The notes under the pieces: generated by a model
What the model was told of the DNA's origin: nothing
What the model saw: the letters and a program-made list of their open reading frames with translations, nothing else
Databases searched by the model: none
Part shown: positions 43,226 through 56,350 of the stretch, piece after piece
Layout of the letters: every line of letters begins with the position of its first letter
How positions within the stretch are numbered: position 1 is the first letter of the stretch
Assembly: GCF_001605885.1 (NCBI RefSeq)
Contig: NZ_LRPE01000039.1
Coordinates: 248,001 to 312,000 of the forward strand
Source of the DNA: Acinetobacter lactucae
GTDB lineage: Bacteria; Pseudomonadota; Gammaproteobacteria; Pseudomonadales; Moraxellaceae
Direction of reading: 5' to 3'
Length of the DNA: 64,000 bases
Program-made: the position numbers and the translations under genes

Positions 43226-44941
43226 TTAGTGGTCTGAAGCACCTGAAGCACCAATACCGGTCATTGAGCGAACGTATTGGGCATCGAATGCAGCACGCTC
43301 TTTTTTTGCACGTGCAGAGTTGTCAGTCACCGAGAACAACCAACAGCAAAGGAATGATAATGGCATCGCAAATAATGCAGGACCATTAAACGGGTTAATT
43401 GGTGTATCAGAGATTTTTAAAGTATCCACCCAAACTGCTTTAGACAGAACAATAAGCACTACCGCTGTTACAAGACCAACCAAACCACCGATAACAGCAC
43501 CACGAGTCGTTAAACCTTTCCAGAACATTGAAAGAACAAGGATCGGGAAGTTTGCACAACATGCCACAGAGAACGCCAAGCCCACCATGAAGGCTACGTT
43601 TTGTTTTTCAAACAAGATACCCAAAATCATCGCAAAGATTGCTAAACCAAGTGTCGCAATTTTTGACATACGGAGTTCTGAAGCTGGAGTCGTTTGACCT
43701 TTCTTAAATACGTTAGCGTACAAGTCGTGTGAAATTGCAGATGCACCTGAAAGTGTTAAACCTGCAACAACTGCAAGAATTGTTGCGAATGCTACTGCTG
43801 AAATGAAGCCCATGAATAAGTCACCGCCTAAAGCGTCACTTAAATGCACGGCTGCCATGTTGTTACCACCAACAAGTTCAAGCTTGCCTGATACTGCCAT
43901 TTTTGCAACATCAAGGAATTGAGGGTTGTTTGATACGAAAAGAATCGCACCGAAACCAATAATAAAAGTTAGAAGATAGAAGTAACCAATGAAACCTGTC
44001 GCAACCACAACTGATTTACGCGCTTCTTTTGCATCTTTTACTGTGAAGAAACGCATAAGAATATGTGGAAGACCTGCTGTACCAAACATGAGTGCTAAGC
44101 CAAGAGACAATGCATCAATCGGATTTGCGGCAAGTTTACCCGGACCCATAATTTTCGCAGCTTCTTCAAAGCTTACGCTGTGAACTTTACTGAATACTTC
44201 AATTGATTGAGTGAACATGTTGCTGAAGCTAAAACCAACCGCTTTCATCACCATGAATGCCATGAAAGTCGCACCACTGAGCAACATGACTGCTTTAATG
44301 ATCTGTACCCATGTCGTTGCCAACATGCCACCAAAGATGACGTATGCCATCATTAATAAACCAACGATGACAACAGCGATGTTGTAGTTCAAACCAAATA
44401 GTAATTTGATGAGCTGACCCGCTCCTACCATTTGAGCGATCAAGTAGAATGCGACAACAACCAACGAGCTCAAGGCAGCTAAGGTACGGACCGGTTTTTC
44501 TTCGAGACGGAATGACACTACGTCTGAAAGGTTGTATTTACCCAGGTTACGTAAACGCTCTGCAATCAAGAATAAAACGATTGGCCACCCTACCATAAAC
44601 CCAAGAGAATAAAGTAAGCCATCAAAACCCGAGCTAAATACCATTGCGGAAATACCGAGGAAAGATGCAGCTGACATATAGTCACCGGCAATTGCCAATC
44701 CGTTCTGGAAACCGCTGATTCCGCCCCCTGCGGTATAGAAATCTTGTGCTGATTGGGTTTGTTTTGCAGCCCACTTGGTAATAAACAAAGTGAAACCAAC
44801 AAAAATCAAAAACATGATGATGGCATGCCAGTTTGTCGCCTGTTGCTCAGCTTCTCCCAAATCTGGACCAGCCATAGCAACAGTTGAATATAGCGATGCT
44901 GCTGCCAATAAGGCTTTCGCTTTTAATGAATTCCATTTCAT
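43226..44941 (-). CDS. actP: cation/acetate symporter
   Basis: 571 residues from the ATG at 44941 (ribosome site AGGAT). Cleavable signal-like first segment, then 13 helices of the SSS family; [17 protein letters not shown] and [14 protein letters not shown] are ActP hallmarks. It imports acetate with sodium or protons. It starts one base after the yjcH stop, so they are one operon, probably controlled by CrbR. Confidence 0.95.
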
Positions 44942-44942
44942 A

Positions 44943-45275
44943 TTAGTGTAATCCTTTCTCATGCGTGATGGCTTCAACTTCCTTCAACGCTTCTTCACTC
45001 AACTGGTCAAGGGTATTGTTTGCGATATAGGAATACACGCCACACAGTAGGAAAGATAAAACAATAATTCCTAAGCCTAGTGGAATACCCCATGTCGTTA
45101 CACCACCACTAAATGAACTCATCAAAAATTCTTTGTTGTAGCCAACAAGTAGCATAAAGCCCACATAAAGCACTAACATAATGATTGTGAGCGTCCAGCT
45201 TAATGCACTTTTTTTCTTGACCATTTTCTGAAACTTTGGATTGTGTAGAATCTTTTCTACTTGGCTTTGATCCAT
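44943..45275 (-). CDS. yjcH: DUF485 (YjcH) membrane protein
   Basis: 110 residues from the ATG at 45275, which follows AAGGAG. Two helices around residues 30-50 and 70-92. YjcH always accompanies ActP; its exact role is unknown. First gene of the yjcH-actP operon, divergent from crbS. Confidence 0.9.
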
Positions 45276-45371: not shown

Positions 45372-45381
45372 GACTTTGGTC
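45372..45381. promoter_or_regulatory. candidate CrbR box (yjcH/crbS)
   Basis: GACTTTGGTC in the 182-bp divergent gap, 97 bp from yjcH and 77 bp from crbS. The same box with A/G at one position lies upstream of 49349 and acs. Confidence 0.55.
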
Positions 45382-45457: not shown

Positions 45458-48400
45458 ATGAACAGCTGGCTGATTATTGGGGTACTCACTCTTTATATAG
45501 CACTCTTATTCGTTTGTGCTTTTTTTGGCGAAAAGCATGCCAGCCGTCTGAGTACACGTGGCCGCATGTTCTTGTTTAGTTTGACCTTAGGTGTTTACTG
45601 TTCATCTTGGACTTTTTATGGTGCAACCGGAGCGGCGGTCCGAGAAGGCGTTATTTTCTTACCTATTTATTTAGGTCCACTGTTATTTGTCTGGTTCGGT
45701 TATGACATCTGGCGACGTTTAGGCCGAGTACGTCAGCACCACGCGATTTCATCAATTGCCGACTTTGTTGCTGCACGTTATGGAAAAAGTGGCGTATTAG
45801 CTTCGCTGGTTACAATCTTGGCAGTGATTGCGATTATTCCCTATCTCGCCTTACAGTTACGTGCAATTGCCTTAAGTACATCAGTCATCTTAGAGCAGAA
45901 TGCTCATATTCATACGACCACCAACAGCGTTTTGCTTTTAACCAGTGTCCTTGCGATCTTGGCCATGATTTTTGGTACCAGACAAATTGCAAACACCGAG
46001 CAACATGGCGGCCTCATGTTAGCTGTGGCATTTGAATCTTTTGTGAAATTATTCGCGCTGATCTGTGTCGCTTTATTTTTTATTTTTGAAGCACCCGCGA
46101 ACTTAGTACAAGTCTCAGCCGACGTAAACCAAACCTTTCAGGAAGTCCAATTGTTTGGGGTACCTGAAACTTTCTGGATTCAGACACTATTGGCAGGTCT
46201 AGCAATTATATGTTTACCCCGTCAATTTCATGTGGCTGTTGTTGAATTACGTGATGAAAAGCATATCCGCGGTGCACGTAAATGGTTTGCGGCTTATCTT
46301 ATTTTAACGATTCTAGCGATTATCCCGATTGCAAGCTGGGCCTTGCATGCAGCTCCGAAGTTCCTCACTGTGCCCGATGTTGCAGTACTCTCATTACCAC
46401 TGAGTTATAACCAAGAGTGGTTAGCCCTACTGGCCTTTTTAGGCGGGTTCTCTGCATCAACAGGCATGTTACTGGTGTCATCTGTTGCCTTGTCTATCAT
46501 GCTCAGTAATGACTTGATTATGCCCGCACTTTGGCGTTTTAAGTTGCTTTCACGCCATGATAAACATCTACCAAAAGTTCTTAAATTTAGTCGACGTATT
46601 AGTATTGTCGCGGTAATGCTACTTGGCTTTTTATTCTTCCATTTCTTTAATGATATTAACCAACTTTCAGTATTTGGTTTATTAGCATTTAGTGCTGTTG
46701 CCCAGTTCGCACCTGCATTGATTGGGGGATTGTATTGGCGAGGCGGAAGTCGCCAAGGTGTCTACGCTGGTCTCATCGTTGGATTTTTAATGTGGAGTTA
46801 TACATTACTATTTCCAACCATCTTACGTAGTTTGCCGGAAGCCTATCAAGAAACAGCCCAAAGTATTTTGCTTTTTGGTCCTTTTGGAATAAATGCCTTA
46901 CGTCCAGAGTCACTTTTTGGTTTTGAGTCATTTGCACCTTTAACGCACGGCGTCATTTGGTCACTCGGTTTAAATATTCTTTTATATATCTGGATTTCTA
47001 AACTTTACCGCCCAAGTGTGGCTGAACAAATACAGGCAGAAAGCTTTTTTTATTATGAAACTAAGCCTTTGCCATCACCCCATACTTCTACCGATTTGAC
47101 CTATTTACCACACGATGCCGCGCGCTTAAAAGTAGGTGATCTGTTCGCACTTGCTAAAAGAATTACGGGTGAGCAACCCACAACTCAAGCATTCGAGAAC
47201 TTTTGCGAGCAAAATCATCTCACGCTCAACCCGAATAGTATCGCCAACGGCATGTGGTGGCGATTCACTGAGCAATATCTTGCAGGTATTATCGGGGCCG
47301 CTTCTGCACGTACGTTGCTCACTACAGCAATGATTAACAATGGTTTGGCATTAGGACAAGTCGCTAATATTTTAGACCAAGCCTCACAATGGCAACGTTT
47401 TAATCAAAACTTGCTGATGACCATGATTGACCACATGACTCAAGGGGTAAGTGTGGTTGATAAAAATATGTGTTTGGTCGCGTGGAACAACCAATATTTA
47501 AAATTATTTGGCTACCCAAAAGATTTAGTCTATGTAGGTTGTCCAATTGCCGACTTGATTCGTTATAACGCTGAACGCGGCGAATGCGGACCCGGTTCAG
47601 TCGAAGAACATGTTCGTAAACGCTTACACTGGATGAAAGTCGGAAGTGCGCATGAGTTTGAACGAATCCGTAAAGACGGACGCGTTATTCAAATGCGTGG
47701 TAATCCTATTTCAGGGGGAGGCTTTGTGACTACGTTCGCTGACATTACTGCTTTCCGTGCGAATGAGGCAATACTCGAAGCCCGCGTAAAAGACAGAACC
47801 CAACAACTTGCAGATGCCTTAAGCGAGCAACAGCTTGCACGCGAACAAGCTGATATGGCCAATATGTCAAAAAGCCGATTTATTGCAGCCGCCAGTCATG
47901 ACTTATTACAACCTATGCATGCCGCCCGTTTGTTTAGTACGGTTCTTGAACAAAGCATCGCAACTGAAGAAGATCGTCAAACTTTGCAGCAACTTGACCG
48001 TGCTCTGTATGGCGCAGAAAGTATGCTCTCTGCCCTACTCGATATTGCACGTTTAGAAGGCGGCACCATACAACCAAAAAGACAGCCTTATCCTTTACAT
48101 GATTTATTAAGCGATCTTGAACTCCAGTTCAAATCAATTGCTGCACAGCGAAACATTTCCCTGAAAGTTCACGATGTATCGTTCTGGATCGATACAGATC
48201 CACAGTGGATTCGACGCATTATTCAAAACTTTGTAAGTAATGCTTTGCGCTATACAGCCAAAGGCCGAGTAATTGTTGGCGTATTACGTTCTGCTCAAAA
48301 ATCTGGTCATATTCGAATTGGTGTTTGGGATACAGGCCCTGGAATTGCTGAAGAGCAACGTATTAAACTATTTCAAGAATTCGAACGTTGTGGACATTTA

Positions 48401-48955
48401 TCCCCTTGGGGTGAGCAAGGTTTAGGTTTGGGCCTTGCTATTGTGCAGCGTATGACGGGCTTGCTGAATTATCCAGTCCATGTCTACTCACAACTCAATA
48501 AAGGCTCTTGCTTTATGATTGAGGTTCCTATCGTAGAAGCTCCAAAAGTGATAACCCCAACCGTACAGGCAGTACCTTTAAAAACCAAAGCCTACCGAAT
48601 TTTATGTCTAGACAATGATGAAACTATTCTTGAGGGCATGAGTAGCTTATTAGGTCGATGGGGTTATGAAGTTTTTAAAGCCACTGAACCAGAACAAGCA
48701 CTTGAGATTATTCAAAAAGAGAATATTCAGGTCTGGCTTATCGATCAGCATTTAAACAACAACCAACTCGGTGTCGATTTTATTTTGCAAAATCGTCAGG
48801 ATGACGTTCCAGTGGCTTTAATTACCGCAGATTCTCATCCTGAGCTACCTCAACAATTGAAAGAACTGAATATTGTTTTACTCAAAAAACCGCTTAAGCC
48901 AGCTTCTCTAAGAGCATGGTTATCGGGACTTAAAATCGCCAGTGAGGTAGATTAA
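45458..48955 (+). CDS. crbS: transporter-fused hybrid histidine kinase, acetate switch sensor
   Basis: 1165 residues: SSS-type transporter domain at about 1-520, PAS domain around 650-760 (MIDHMTQGVSVVDKNMCLVAWNNQYLKLFG), HisKA with His814 (AAASHDLLQPMH), HATPase (FVSNALRYTA, DTGPGIAEE), and receiver domain with Asp1096 (IDQHLNN). This is the CrbS/MxtR layout. It controls acs and actP with the response regulator CrbR. Full length, no damage seen. Confidence 0.92.
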   Translation: MNSWLIIGVLTLYIALLFVCAFFGEKHASRLSTRGRMFLFSLTLGVYCSSWTFYGATGAAVREGVIFLPIYLGPLLFVWFGYDIWRRLGRVRQHHAISSIADFVAARYGKSGVLASLVTILAVIAIIPYLALQLRAIALSTSVILEQNAHIHTTTNSVLLLTSVLAILAMIFGTRQIANTEQHGGLMLAVAFESFVKLFALICVALFFIFEAPANLVQVSADVNQTFQEVQLFGVPETFWIQTLLAGLAIICLPRQFHVAVVELRDEKHIRGARKWFAAYLILTILAIIPIASWALHAAPKFLTVPDVAVLSLPLSYNQEWLALLAFLGGFSASTGMLLVSSVALSIMLSNDLIMPALWRFKLLSRHDKHLPKVLKFSRRISIVAVMLLGFLFFHFFNDINQLSVFGLLAFSAVAQFAPALIGGLYWRGGSRQGVYAGLIVGFLMWSYTLLFPTILRSLPEAYQETAQSILLFGPFGINALRPESLFGFESFAPLTHGVIWSLGLNILLYIWISKLYRPSVAEQIQAESFFYYETKPLPSPHTSTDLTYLPHDAARLKVGDLFALAKRITGEQPTTQAFENFCEQNHLTLNPNSIANGMWWRFTEQYLAGIIGAASARTLLTTAMINNGLALGQVANILDQASQWQRFNQNLLMTMIDHMTQGVSVVDKNMCLVAWNNQYLKLFGYPKDLVYVGCPIADLIRYNAERGECGPGSVEEHVRKRLHWMKVGSAHEFERIRKDGRVIQMRGNPISGGGFVTTFADITAFRANEAILEARVKDRTQQLADALSEQQLAREQADMANMSKSRFIAAASHDLLQPMHAARLFSTVLEQSIATEEDRQTLQQLDRALYGAESMLSALLDIARLEGGTIQPKRQPYPLHDLLSDLELQFKSIAAQRNISLKVHDVSFWIDTDPQWIRRIIQNFVSNALRYTAKGRVIVGVLRSAQKSGHIRIGVWDTGPGIAEEQRIKLFQEFERCGHLSPWGEQGLGLGLAIVQRMTGLLNYPVHVYSQLNKGSCFMIEVPIVEAPKVITPTVQAVPLKTKAYRILCLDNDETILEGMSSLLGRWGYEVFKATEPEQALEIIQKENIQVWLIDQHLNNNQLGVDFILQNRQDDVPVALITADSHPELPQQLKELNIVLLKKPLKPASLRAWLSGLKIASEVD

Positions 48956-49204: not shown

Positions 49205-49220
49205 TACGACTTTAGTCGTA
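49205..49220. promoter_or_regulatory. candidate CrbR box upstream of unknown gene
   Basis: TACGACTTTAGTCGTA is a palindrome with 7-bp perfect arms; the core GACTTTAGTC matches the boxes at yjcH/crbS and acs. It is 129 bp before the 49349 start. The remainder of 48995-49348 holds no gene. Confidence 0.6.
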
Positions 49221-49348
49221 TTCTACTTGCATTCTTCATGACACATAAATATTCAAAACTTATTTTTTAAATGTACAGCTATTTTTATATAAAACCTATT
49301 TCTATATTAAGCACCCCTGCTCACGAATTAATGCAAAGGACAATTGCT

Positions 49349-50116
49349 ATGAATATTTCTGATAACAGCCCACAAGGCCAACTTTCGTCTCAACAGTTTT
49401 ATCGTCAATATAGTGCCAATGCTTTACTTCCTGAACTAGATTGGCAAAGTATTTTCCCCCATAGCAAACTCAACGAAGCAAATATCAAAGCGTTAAATAC
49501 AATTTATCAATGTGCAGTCCCACTGGCACTTAATGTATTTCATGATCTAAATTTTGATGTATTTGCACCTGCGGCTTATCATCCGCAAGGTTTAGGCTTA
49601 TTTGATAAATTGGCTCAACAAGAAGAAAACTTTTTAAAAGTTCTTAGCGCTGAAAGTGAAAATCTTGACCACGACACACGTCATCAAATCTGGAGCATGC
49701 TACTCCGTGGCGGTGCTGTACTCGTTTTCAAAGCTTGGCTTGGTCATGTCAAACTCGGCGAAAATCAGTTAGATATGACTCAGTTTGATGAACTCTCTGA
49801 CTTACTGTTTATTAAAACGCATCCAGATCAACTTGCTGAACGACTCCATGTTGATGAAAAAGCAAAACTCGACCATATCTTCTTGATGTATGGCAATGAT
49901 ATCTTCCTTGATCGCTTCAACAGCCTAGAAACAGCTGCACTTTTTGTAGATTTAGGCGTTTATGATGCAGCCTTCTTAAGCTTACGTGACGACCGCGTGG
50001 CTGAATATTTAAAAATGAAAGGTTATGTGACTCAAGATCAAATTGATGATTTGCAATGTGCGCTTAACCCATTGTACTGCGACAGCCTAACGCCAAAGCA
50101 AGACTGCCTTGCTTAA
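49349..50116 (+). CDS. unknown protein, acetate-switch neighbour
   Basis: 255 residues from the ATG at 49349 (ribosome site AAGGA). Soluble, mostly helical, no signal peptide, no recognised motif; the C-terminus has two Cys (LQCALNPLYCDS, QDCLA). It lies between crbS and crbR, and a near-perfect copy of the acetate box precedes it, so I infer membership in the CrbR regulon. I cannot name a function. Confidence 0.75.
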   Translation: MNISDNSPQGQLSSQQFYRQYSANALLPELDWQSIFPHSKLNEANIKALNTIYQCAVPLALNVFHDLNFDVFAPAAYHPQGLGLFDKLAQQEENFLKVLSAESENLDHDTRHQIWSMLLRGGAVLVFKAWLGHVKLGENQLDMTQFDELSDLLFIKTHPDQLAERLHVDEKAKLDHIFLMYGNDIFLDRFNSLETAALFVDLGVYDAAFLSLRDDRVAEYLKMKGYVTQDQIDDLQCALNPLYCDSLTPKQDCLA

Positions 50117-50126
50117 GTGGCACCCA

Positions 50127-50157
50127 TAAAAAAGACCTCAATTGAGGTCTTTTTTCT
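50127..50157. terminator. bidirectional terminator
   Basis: AAAAGACCTCAATTGAGGTCTTTTTT between the convergent 49349 and crbR genes. Confidence 0.85.
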
Positions 50158-50160
50158 TTT

Positions 50161-50811
50161 TTAGATTTTCTTATCTTCAATATTAAGTGCACTAATCGCT
50201 AATACGGCTTGTGTACGGTTTTGCACACCTAATTTTCTAAAAATAGCGGTCACATGCGCTTTAATTGTTGCTTCTGAAACATCGAGCTCGTATGCGATCT
50301 GCTTATTTAACAAACCTTCGGCAACCATCATCAAAACACGGAATTGCTGAGGTGTTAACGATTGAATACGTTCAGCTAAAGCAGTTTCATCTGCTGCTCT
50401 TGGGTCAAGGTTAAGATTAGATGGCAAGTTAGGTGGTAACCAGATATCACCTTCTAAGACTTGACGAATCGCTTCGCCAATATGACTTGGATGAGCCGAC
50501 TTAGGAATATAACCCATCGCACCATGTGCAATTGCACGCTGAATGATTGAAGTTTCTTCATGTGCAGAAACCACAATAATCGGAATAGATGGATACTGTG
50601 CTCTTACATAAACCAGAGCCGAAAAGCCTGAAGCACCCGGTAAATTTAAATCGAGTAATACTAGATCAGGTTCTGCCCCATTTTCCAAACGCTCATAAAA
50701 CTCATCAACCGAAGCTGTTTCATGAATTTGTGCCTGTGGCAGGCTATAACGTACTGCTTGAATTAAAGCATGACGAAACAAAGGATGATCATCAACGATT
50801 AAAATATTCAT
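50161..50811 (-). CDS. crbR: LuxR-family response regulator, acetate switch
   Basis: 216 residues: receiver domain with phosphoacceptor Asp54 (LLDLNLPGASG), conserved DDHP at 7-10, Lys in YIPKSAH, and a LuxR HTH at about 148-205 (LTPQQFRVLMMVAEGLLNKQIAYELDVSEATIKAHVTAIFRKL). It matches CrbR/ErdR, the partner of CrbS, activating acs and actP. The DNA site is likely the palindromic GACTTT(A/G)GTC box. Confidence 0.88.
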   Translation of the reverse strand: MNILIVDDHPLFRHALIQAVRYSLPQAQIHETASVDEFYERLENGAEPDLVLLDLNLPGASGFSALVYVRAQYPSIPIIVVSAHEETSIIQRAIAHGAMGYIPKSAHPSHIGEAIRQVLEGDIWLPPNLPSNLNLDPRAADETALAERIQSLTPQQFRVLMMVAEGLLNKQIAYELDVSEATIKAHVTAIFRKLGVQNRTQAVLAISALNIEDKKI

Positions 50812-54278: not shown

Positions 54279-56228
54279 TTAATTTTGCTTATCAGGATAA
54301 ACCGTTGCAATCAACTGCTCTACCACTGCTGGTTCAGCCAAGGTCGAAGTGTCACCTAAGCTATCTAATTCATTCGCTGCAATTTTTCTTAAAATACGGC
54401 GCATGATTTTACCCGAACGAGTTTTAGGTAATGCTGGTGCCCAGTGTAATGCATCAGGTGAAGCCACAGGTCCAAGCACTTTACGTACCCAGTTAATTAA
54501 CTCTTTACGCAGCTCTTCCGACTCTGGAACACCTGCCTGTAAAGTCACGAAAGTACAAATACCTTGCCCTTTAATATCATGAGGCATGCCCACCACTGCT
54601 GCTTCTGCAACAGATTCATGCGAAACCAAAGCACTTTCAATTTCAGCAGTGCCCAGACGATGACCTGAAACGTTTAAGACATCGTCAACACGACCTGTGA
54701 TCCAGTAATAGCCATCTTCATCACGGCGAGCACCATCCCCCGTAAAATAAGTATTTTTAAAGGTCGAAAAATACGCCTCAATAAAGCGGTCTGGGTCACC
54801 CCAAATGGTACGCATCTGGCCCGGCCATGAATCTTTAATCACAAGGTTACCTTCAACCGCACCTTCTAGTTCATTGCCTTCACCATCTACAATGGCAGGT
54901 TGGATGCCAAACAACGGACGTGTTGCCGAACCTGGTTTTAAAGCTGTTGCACCTGGCAAAGGAGCAATCAAAATACCGCCTGTTTCGGTTTGCCACCATG
55001 TATCAACAATCGGGCAGCGACCTTCACCGACTACATTGTAGTACCAGTTCCAAGCCTCAGGGTTAATAGGTTCACCGACCGAACCGAGTAAACGCAAGCT
55101 GCTACGGTTACTTTCGCGTACAAACGAATCACCTTCTCGCATCATGGCGCGAATCGCAGTTGGCGCTGTATACAAAATAGAAACTTTATGCTTATCGACC
55201 ACATGACCAAGACGTGCCCATGTTGGATATTGAGGCACACCCTCAAACATTAGGGTCGTGGTGCCATTTGCTAGCGGTCCATAAATTAAATAACTATGCC
55301 CTGTAATCCAACCGATATCGGCTGTACACCAGTAAACATCATCTTGTTTTAAATCAAATACCTCTTTAAAGGTACTGGTTACATAAACTAAGTAACCACC
55401 CGTAGTATGTAAGACGCCTTTCGGTTTACCTGTTGAGCCCGAGGTATAAAGAATAAATAAAGGGTCTTCTGCCTTCATCGGCTCTGGAGGACAGTTTGCA
55501 TCCACTTCCATAATAACAAGGTGATACCACAAATCACGGCCCGGCTTCATTTCAATCGGGTTCGCATTGCGGTAAACCACAATCACGTTTTCAACACACT
55601 CAGTACCCGGCAATGCTAAAGCCAAATCAACATTTTCTTTGAGCGGTAAGAGTTTACCGGCACGTAGACTTGAGTCTGCGGTAATCACCAGTTTAGCTTG
55701 GCTGTCTTCAATACGACTTGCCAAAGAATCTGGCGAGAACCCACCAAATACCACGCAGTGAACTGCACCAATACGAGCACAGGCTAACATCGCAATTGCA
55801 GCCTCAGTCACCATCGGCATATACAGCACAACACGGTCGCCTTTACCAATGCCATATTTCTTTAAAACGTTAGCAAAACGGCAGACTTCGTCATGTAATT
55901 CTTTATAAGAGACAATTTTATGACGGGAAGGATGGTCACCTTCCCAAATGATGGCAGGTTTATGTGGATGTTCTTTAAGATGTCTGTCTAGGCAGTTTGC
56001 TGACACGTTCAGCTCGCCATCAGCAAACCATTCAATTTTGAAATTGTCTTTGTCAAAACTGGTATTTTTAACTTGGGTAAATGGTTTTATCCAATCGACA
56101 ATTTTAGCTTGCTCTGCCCAGAATTCATCTGGGTTCTCGATAGAGTGTTGATAACGTTTAAAGTAGTCTGCTTCAACAGTACGAGCAGTTTTTTTAAATT
56201 CCTCTGGTACTGGATAGATCTCATTCAT
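54279..56228 (-). CDS. acs: acetyl-CoA synthetase
   Basis: 649 residues from the ATG at 56228 (AAGGAAG ribosome site). AMP-binding motif [11 protein letters not shown], adenylate core TWWQTETGG, hinge [15 protein letters not shown], and acetylatable Lys607 in [11 protein letters not shown]. It converts acetate, ATP and CoA to acetyl-CoA. Full length. Probably activated by CrbR from the box at 56341. Confidence 0.97.
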
Positions 56229-56340: not shown

Positions 56341-56350
56341 GACTTTGGTC
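56341..56350. promoter_or_regulatory. candidate CrbR box upstream of acs
   Basis: GACTTTGGTC, 113 bp before acs, followed by ATATA. Same core as at 45372 and 49208. Confidence 0.55.

Follow-up and report, generated by a model that had tools for sequence, protein, structure and literature searches.

The window examined here (the whole 64-kb stretch of DNA that was analyzed) contains a gene for a 255-residue orphan protein, termed ORF255, between crbS and crbR, which raises the question of whether this protein belongs to the CrbR regulon and serves in the acetate response. The gene order is actP and yjcH (−), crbS (+), ORF255 (+), crbR (−), an ssuE/ssuD-like pair (+), an lrp-like gene (−), a pncA-like gene (+), and acs (−), with names taken from an annotated homologous stretch. 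ORF255 occupies 49349–50116 (+), with its ATG at 49349 and a ribosome-binding-like site, AAAGGA, at 49335–49340 (+); similar purine-rich stretches precede most ortholog starts. A longer frame of 281 amino acids beginning at 49271 was rejected, as it is not the start that orthologs keep. The placement of ORF255 between crbS and crbR, as given by a sequence-only reading of the locus, was borne out. The crbS gene (mxtR, emaS; 45458–48955, +) encodes a hybrid histidine kinase with PAS, HisKA, HATPase, and receiver domains and an N-terminal transporter-like (SLC5) part, for which no Pfam match was obtained at E 0.001. The crbR gene (erdR, emaR; 50161–50811, −) encodes a receiver and a LuxR-type DNA-binding domain according to Pfam; its best NCBIfam model was ErdR (E 1.7e-77), yet the match fell under the cut-off of that model. 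ORF255 and crbR are convergent and separated by a terminator-like hairpin at 50128–50155 (+). The acetate symporter gene actP (43226–44941, −; NCBIfam ActP subfamily) and the acetate–CoA ligase gene acs (54279–56228, −; TIGR02188) both scored above cut-off, and yjcH was placed at 44943–45275 (−) with its start from an annotated homolog. The nearest sampled genomes showed a 99% match to the window ORF255, and in one of them CrbS was 100% identical.

A predicted CrbR box upstream of ORF255

The motif GACTTTRGTC had been reported by the sequence-only reading upstream of yjcH/crbS, acs, and ORF255, the last as a 16-bp palindrome. Three exact matches were indeed found in the window (45372–45381, 49208–49217, and 56341–56350), against a mean of 0.17 in 100 shuffles, none of which reached three; matches with one mismatch were ordinary (8 vs. 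5.9 expected). The first, in the yjcH/crbS gap, and the third, upstream of acs, read GACTTTGGTC on the + strand and carry the exact core, which recurs as AC[CT]AAAGTC in 78/84 yjcH upstreams and in relaxed form in 22/33 acs upstreams. The palindrome, TACGACTTTAGTCGTA (49205–49220, +), has 7-bp arms and a TT centre and is the predicted CrbR site of ORF255. A search of the whole genome upheld the distinctness of this 16-mer, which occurred exactly once, but not that of the 10-base core, which was near background with 23 sites vs. 15 for the reversed pattern. Sixteen of these sites lie within reading frames; the seven intergenic ones comprise yjcH/crbS, ORF255, acs, lldP, sucA, and two that by eye are symmetrical and resemble terminator hairpins. 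Hence, the core alone proves little, and it is conservation that sets the box beyond chance.

The core is the ACTU motif already published for CrbR/ErdR promoters, an inverted repeat described by Sepulveda and Lupas upstream of acs in 31 Gammaproteobacteria, required for CrbR activation in reporters, and, in Acinetobacter oleivorans, marked at both acs and actP in the table of that study (PMC5715377). The motif is already known; ORF255 as its candidate target is new. The exact nine-base core ACTTTRGTC (A or G form) was present in 60 of 67 upstreams of orthologs with 48–96% identity to the window protein, compared with 2 of 272 control upstreams taken from eight neighbouring genes, and the A form, ACTTTAGTC, was found within 300 bp upstream in 57/67 orthologs vs. 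0.1% of shuffles. The box is thus retained in other strains. These counts exclude two loci (L053 and L061) in which an internal ATG had been taken as the start; both have the 16-mer with two mismatches. A match to the core with at most one mismatch was common by chance (41/272 control upstreams), and the perfect palindrome was rare (3 of the 57 orthologs with the exact core). In the second genus that carries ORF255, the boxes are weak, with one or two mismatches, at −210 to −242.

Alignment of 47 non-redundant promoters, in which ACTTTAGTC is 100% by selection, showed T at −4 in 98%, A at +11 in 100%, and T at +12 in 96%, as well as a proposed −10-like element, CATAAA, at +35 to +40 from the A of ACTTTAGTC (68–91% per base), which in the window lies at 49244–49249 (+). 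A consensus sigma-70 promoter scan gave four sites vs. 3.8 in shuffles, none of them at this element. From the position of CATAAA, transcription is inferred to start about seven bases past it, near 49256; if so, the box would span roughly −51 to −36, nearly where the acs box of Pseudomonas fluorescens has been reported (−52 to −36; PMC5715377). The spacing between the box and a −10-like TACTG at acs is about as at ORF255, and at yjcH the −10-like candidate is a few bases nearer the box. Read along transcription, the box of ORF255 is inverted relative to those of acs and yjcH (ACTTTAGTC vs. ACCAAAGTC); as a near-palindrome read by a dimer, its inversion may not matter, although it is still a difference. 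The exact core was absent upstream of crbR in 80/80 loci, so that ACTU lends no support to crbR autoregulation.

The regulator pair and the inverted repeat are the same in the CrbS/R regulon of P. fluorescens SBW25, and the promoter distance is similar; that regulon also takes in genes of unclear role beside acs and actP (PMC5715377). Its reported targets are acs, actP, pflu0110, and pflu5625, whereas ORF255 relatives are limited to Acinetobacter and one related genus among the genomes searched. The counterpart of CrbSR in Acinetobacter baumannii has been published as EmaSR (PMC9603970). By gene order in strain ATCC 19606, emaS corresponds to crbS and emaR to crbR, and the EmaSR regulon includes yjcH-actP, as proposed for CrbR here (PMC9603970, PMC10891947). 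EmaSR mutants fail to grow on acetate and ethanol and are also changed in motility and biofilm (PMC9603970). According to section 2.5 of that paper, expression of emaSR neighbour genes falls in the double mutant, and these may include the ORF255 counterpart; Figure 1A of the same paper spans the gene between emaS and emaR. By position this gene is DJ41_3171; the string “3171” does not occur in the main texts of PMC9603970 and PMC10891947, and no title on it was among those listed in literature searches on DJ41_3171 and on the acetate regulator pair. The EmaR box proposed in these two papers, CTTATxxxxATxAT, is unlike ACTU and rich in A and T (PMC9603970, PMC10891947), and may perhaps not be the true EmaR site.

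Distribution of ORF255 and features of the protein

Of the 299 genomes sampled from the family, 112 were found to carry ORF255, namely, 108 of 126 Acinetobacter and four of one other genus, while crbS was present in 126/126 Acinetobacter. The neighbourhood was fetched for 69 of the 112 loci, and in 69/69 ORF255 adjoins crbS on the same strand, 271–578 bp past it; in 16 of the 69, crbR lies outside the fetched stretch. Among the 18 Acinetobacter genomes without ORF255, crbS and crbR are adjacent in 14, with a gap of 3–227 bp, and in the other four crbR is not adjacent or was not reached. The core with at most one mismatch was absent from the 14 gaps, except that L112 has a 9-base match bordering its 17-bp gap, and two of the other four loci (L107 and L115) have a one-mismatch core within 600 bp after crbS. 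This joint presence and absence indicates that box, promoter, and gene are for the most part gained or lost together as a single cassette.

When 341 genomes of the order were searched by alignment, two Acinetobacter genomes and one weak 38-residue match outside the genus (G371) came up; the latter was rejected as a relative since its E value of 0.0015 refers to one genome and is at chance level when 341 are searched. A separate collection gave 114 confirmed matches, and the 80 of these that were listed all bear Acinetobacter titles. A mobile origin was also rejected: where the phage and plasmid collections contained a match, the record was an Acinetobacter one, and at least one such record is chromosome-like with the same gene order; a scan of viral contigs found no relative. 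The record CAKLQH020000013.1 (filed as “Acinetobacter phage MD-2021a”) shows the chromosomal order of yjcH, actP, crbS, ORF255, crbR, and acs; it is probably a contig of bacterial origin wrongly filed under phage. The PLSDB records NZ_CP064203.1, NZ_CP104448.1, and NZ_CP077849.1 are A. baumannii entries of a plasmid collection with the size of chromosomes (3.6–4.1 Mb).

The dN/dS of ORF255 was 0.013–0.076 in nine pairs, pointing to purifying selection. Nothing exceeded the curated cut-offs of Pfam and NCBIfam, and PHROGs, PADLOC, and PDB sequences gave nothing usable; phasin was discarded as a family, since its E of 0.07, seen in 8 of 50 members, is far from any cut-off. The AlphaFold model (pLDDT 80.5, pTM 0.78) is all-helical with one short hairpin. 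Structure searches with this model returned nothing usable (Foldseek best E 1.6 against PDB and 0.63 against viral structures; VIA best Z 4.1), nor did Foldseek or VIA with the C-terminal part alone, whose model is poor (pLDDT 70.6), so that the missing match says little. The lack of a fold match does not prove that ORF255 is a new fold. Conserved residues cluster at about 115–131 (WSM..RGGAVL.FK.WL) and at 79–85 (PQGLGLF), and no membrane or export segment was recognisable by eye.

Possible association with acs and candidate members of the regulon

All 108 ORF255-bearing Acinetobacter have acs, which is missing in 8 of the 126 genomes, and 8/8 of these are without ORF255; ten genomes keep acs and crbS without ORF255. 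One ORF255-less genome (G145), with acs in two overlapping pieces at C16:50401-52324 that reflect a frameshift or an assembly error, was scored as acs-positive. When the 18 genomes without ORF255 were compared with 21 chosen genomes with it for acs, actP, and isocitrate lyase, actP was missing in 5/18 vs. 0/21, and the isocitrate lyase family likewise in 5/18 vs. 0/21. On the CrbS tree, which omits ten far loci (L119–L128), the ingroup required six changes for ORF255 and four for acs; four independent pairs comparing the two genes gave two in the same direction, none opposite, and two with no difference, too few events for significance. The link between loss of ORF255 and loss of acs is suggestive. 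Since crbS survives in acs-less genomes and ORF255 does not, a role beside Acs is favoured over one as a partner of CrbS. Five genomes of 2.4–2.8 Mb (L109 and L111–L114) keep crbS and crbR and are devoid of acs, actP, isocitrate lyase, and ORF255; the sensor there has outlasted the acetate targets known for it and may serve another purpose.

Boxes were also seen before sucA and lldP in 22 chosen genomes, 15 of which have lldP. A box with at most one mismatch lies at −479 to −582 of sucA in 15/22 genomes (seven exact; loci L243–L264), and in the genome of the window an ACTU-like box is found 68 bp past the stop codon of sdhB, at about −487 of sucA (L238, 1501–1510). Similarly, 13 of the 15 lldP-bearing genomes have a box with at most one mismatch at −240 to −320 (five exact; loci L265–L279), in both orientations, that of the window genome being at 1501–1510 of L224. 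What speaks for these candidate boxes is the position they share. It may be that the 2-oxoglutarate dehydrogenase operon (sucA) is under CrbR. An imperfect TTAGACCTTAGCCTAA also lies at −113 of a homolog of acetate:succinate CoA transferase.

Proposed role of ORF255 and alternative explanations

The ORF255 gene, its box, the conservation of that box, the linkage to crbS, the joint absence, and the purifying selection are all documented at the level of sequence. Membership of ORF255 in the CrbR regulon, as put forward by the sequence-only reading, is supported as a prediction by the conserved box with its −10-like element, the crbS linkage in 69/69 loci, and the joint absence; ORF255 is very probably an acetate-response component of the genus that had been missed. 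The reading toward which we lean, with slightly better than even confidence, is that ORF255 is a CrbR-activated helical accessory protein of the CrbS/CrbR (EmaSR, MxtR/ErdR) acetate response; an acetate function is plausible, on indirect grounds. According to this reading, CrbS would sense the acetate or ethanol state and give rise to phosphorylated CrbR, which would bind the predicted box at 49205–49220 beside the −35 region. Transcription would then be induced from near 49256, and the all-helical protein would be made alongside ActP and Acs, and probably SucA and LldP too. ORF255 would most likely aid the handling of acetate or acetyl-CoA flux, useful only with Acs, its biochemical role being a guess. 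A more far-reaching version, held tentatively and as the less probable of the two, takes ORF255 as the founder of a family that is restricted to Acinetobacter and a single related genus and whose fold is unmatched among solved structures; as a CrbR-induced acetate effector it might regulate or chaperone Acs or serve as an acetate-stress factor, with CrbR also driving sucA and lldP.

ORF255 could instead be induced by CrbR and bind the CrbS kinase, whose signal it would tune as a partner or through feedback. Its position beside crbS on the same strand in 69/69 fetched loci, including the 16 in which the fetched stretch does not contain crbR, and its CrbR-type box agree with such a role, but the adjacency could merely mirror where insertions fall, and crbS is present in 126/126 genomes compared with 108/126 for ORF255, which is absent from 8/8 acs-less genomes that keep crbS; we regard this as unlikely. 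That ORF255 is in the CrbR regulon and serves another process, e.g., use of pyruvate or lactate, motility, or growth on surfaces, appears less likely again. It would accord with the altered motility and biofilm of EmaSR mutants (PMC9603970), with the ten genomes that have acs and no ORF255, and with the ErdR targets pp_0353/pp_0354 of Pseudomonas putida, which were unimportant on acetate, pp_0353 being of importance for pyruvate (PMC9927547); the absence of ORF255 from every acs-less genome counts against it. The P. putida targets scpC and pp_0353/pp_0354 are likewise accessory to ErdR, with roles sought by deletion; they are a CoA transferase and a putative exonuclease, whereas ORF255 matches no family (PMC8402216, PMC9927547).

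A further view, that the palindrome is a terminator hairpin after crbS or a chance occurrence and ORF255 is free of CrbR control, draws on a terminator-like match on the minus strand that overlaps the palindrome and on the near-background number of cores genome-wide. The hairpin pair −1/+8, however, forms in 13 of 57 orthologs, bases outside the palindrome pairing are also conserved in the ortholog promoters, and the core stands in 60/67 ortholog upstreams vs. 2/272 controls; the terminator reading was therefore rejected, and regulator-independent expression is considered very improbable.

With regard to regulation, ORF255 is an addition to the known CrbR regulon; with regard to the protein, it is an orphan family. 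It represents a conserved, so far unremarked candidate target of a two-component system needed for growth of A. baumannii on acetate and ethanol. As a candidate EmaR site, ACTU is better conserved than the AT-rich motif in the literature, cross-species conservation having been scored for ACTU alone. The boxes at sucA and lldP suggest a regulon reaching the TCA cycle and lactate uptake; if CrbR does drive these genes, the 2-oxoglutarate step and lactate uptake would be tied to acetate sensing. EmaSR is required in this genus both to grow on acetate and to reach full virulence in an insect model; if the proposed role is correct, the ORF255 family would act in that setting, and an orphan protein regulated with one pathway would offer a tractable path toward a new function.
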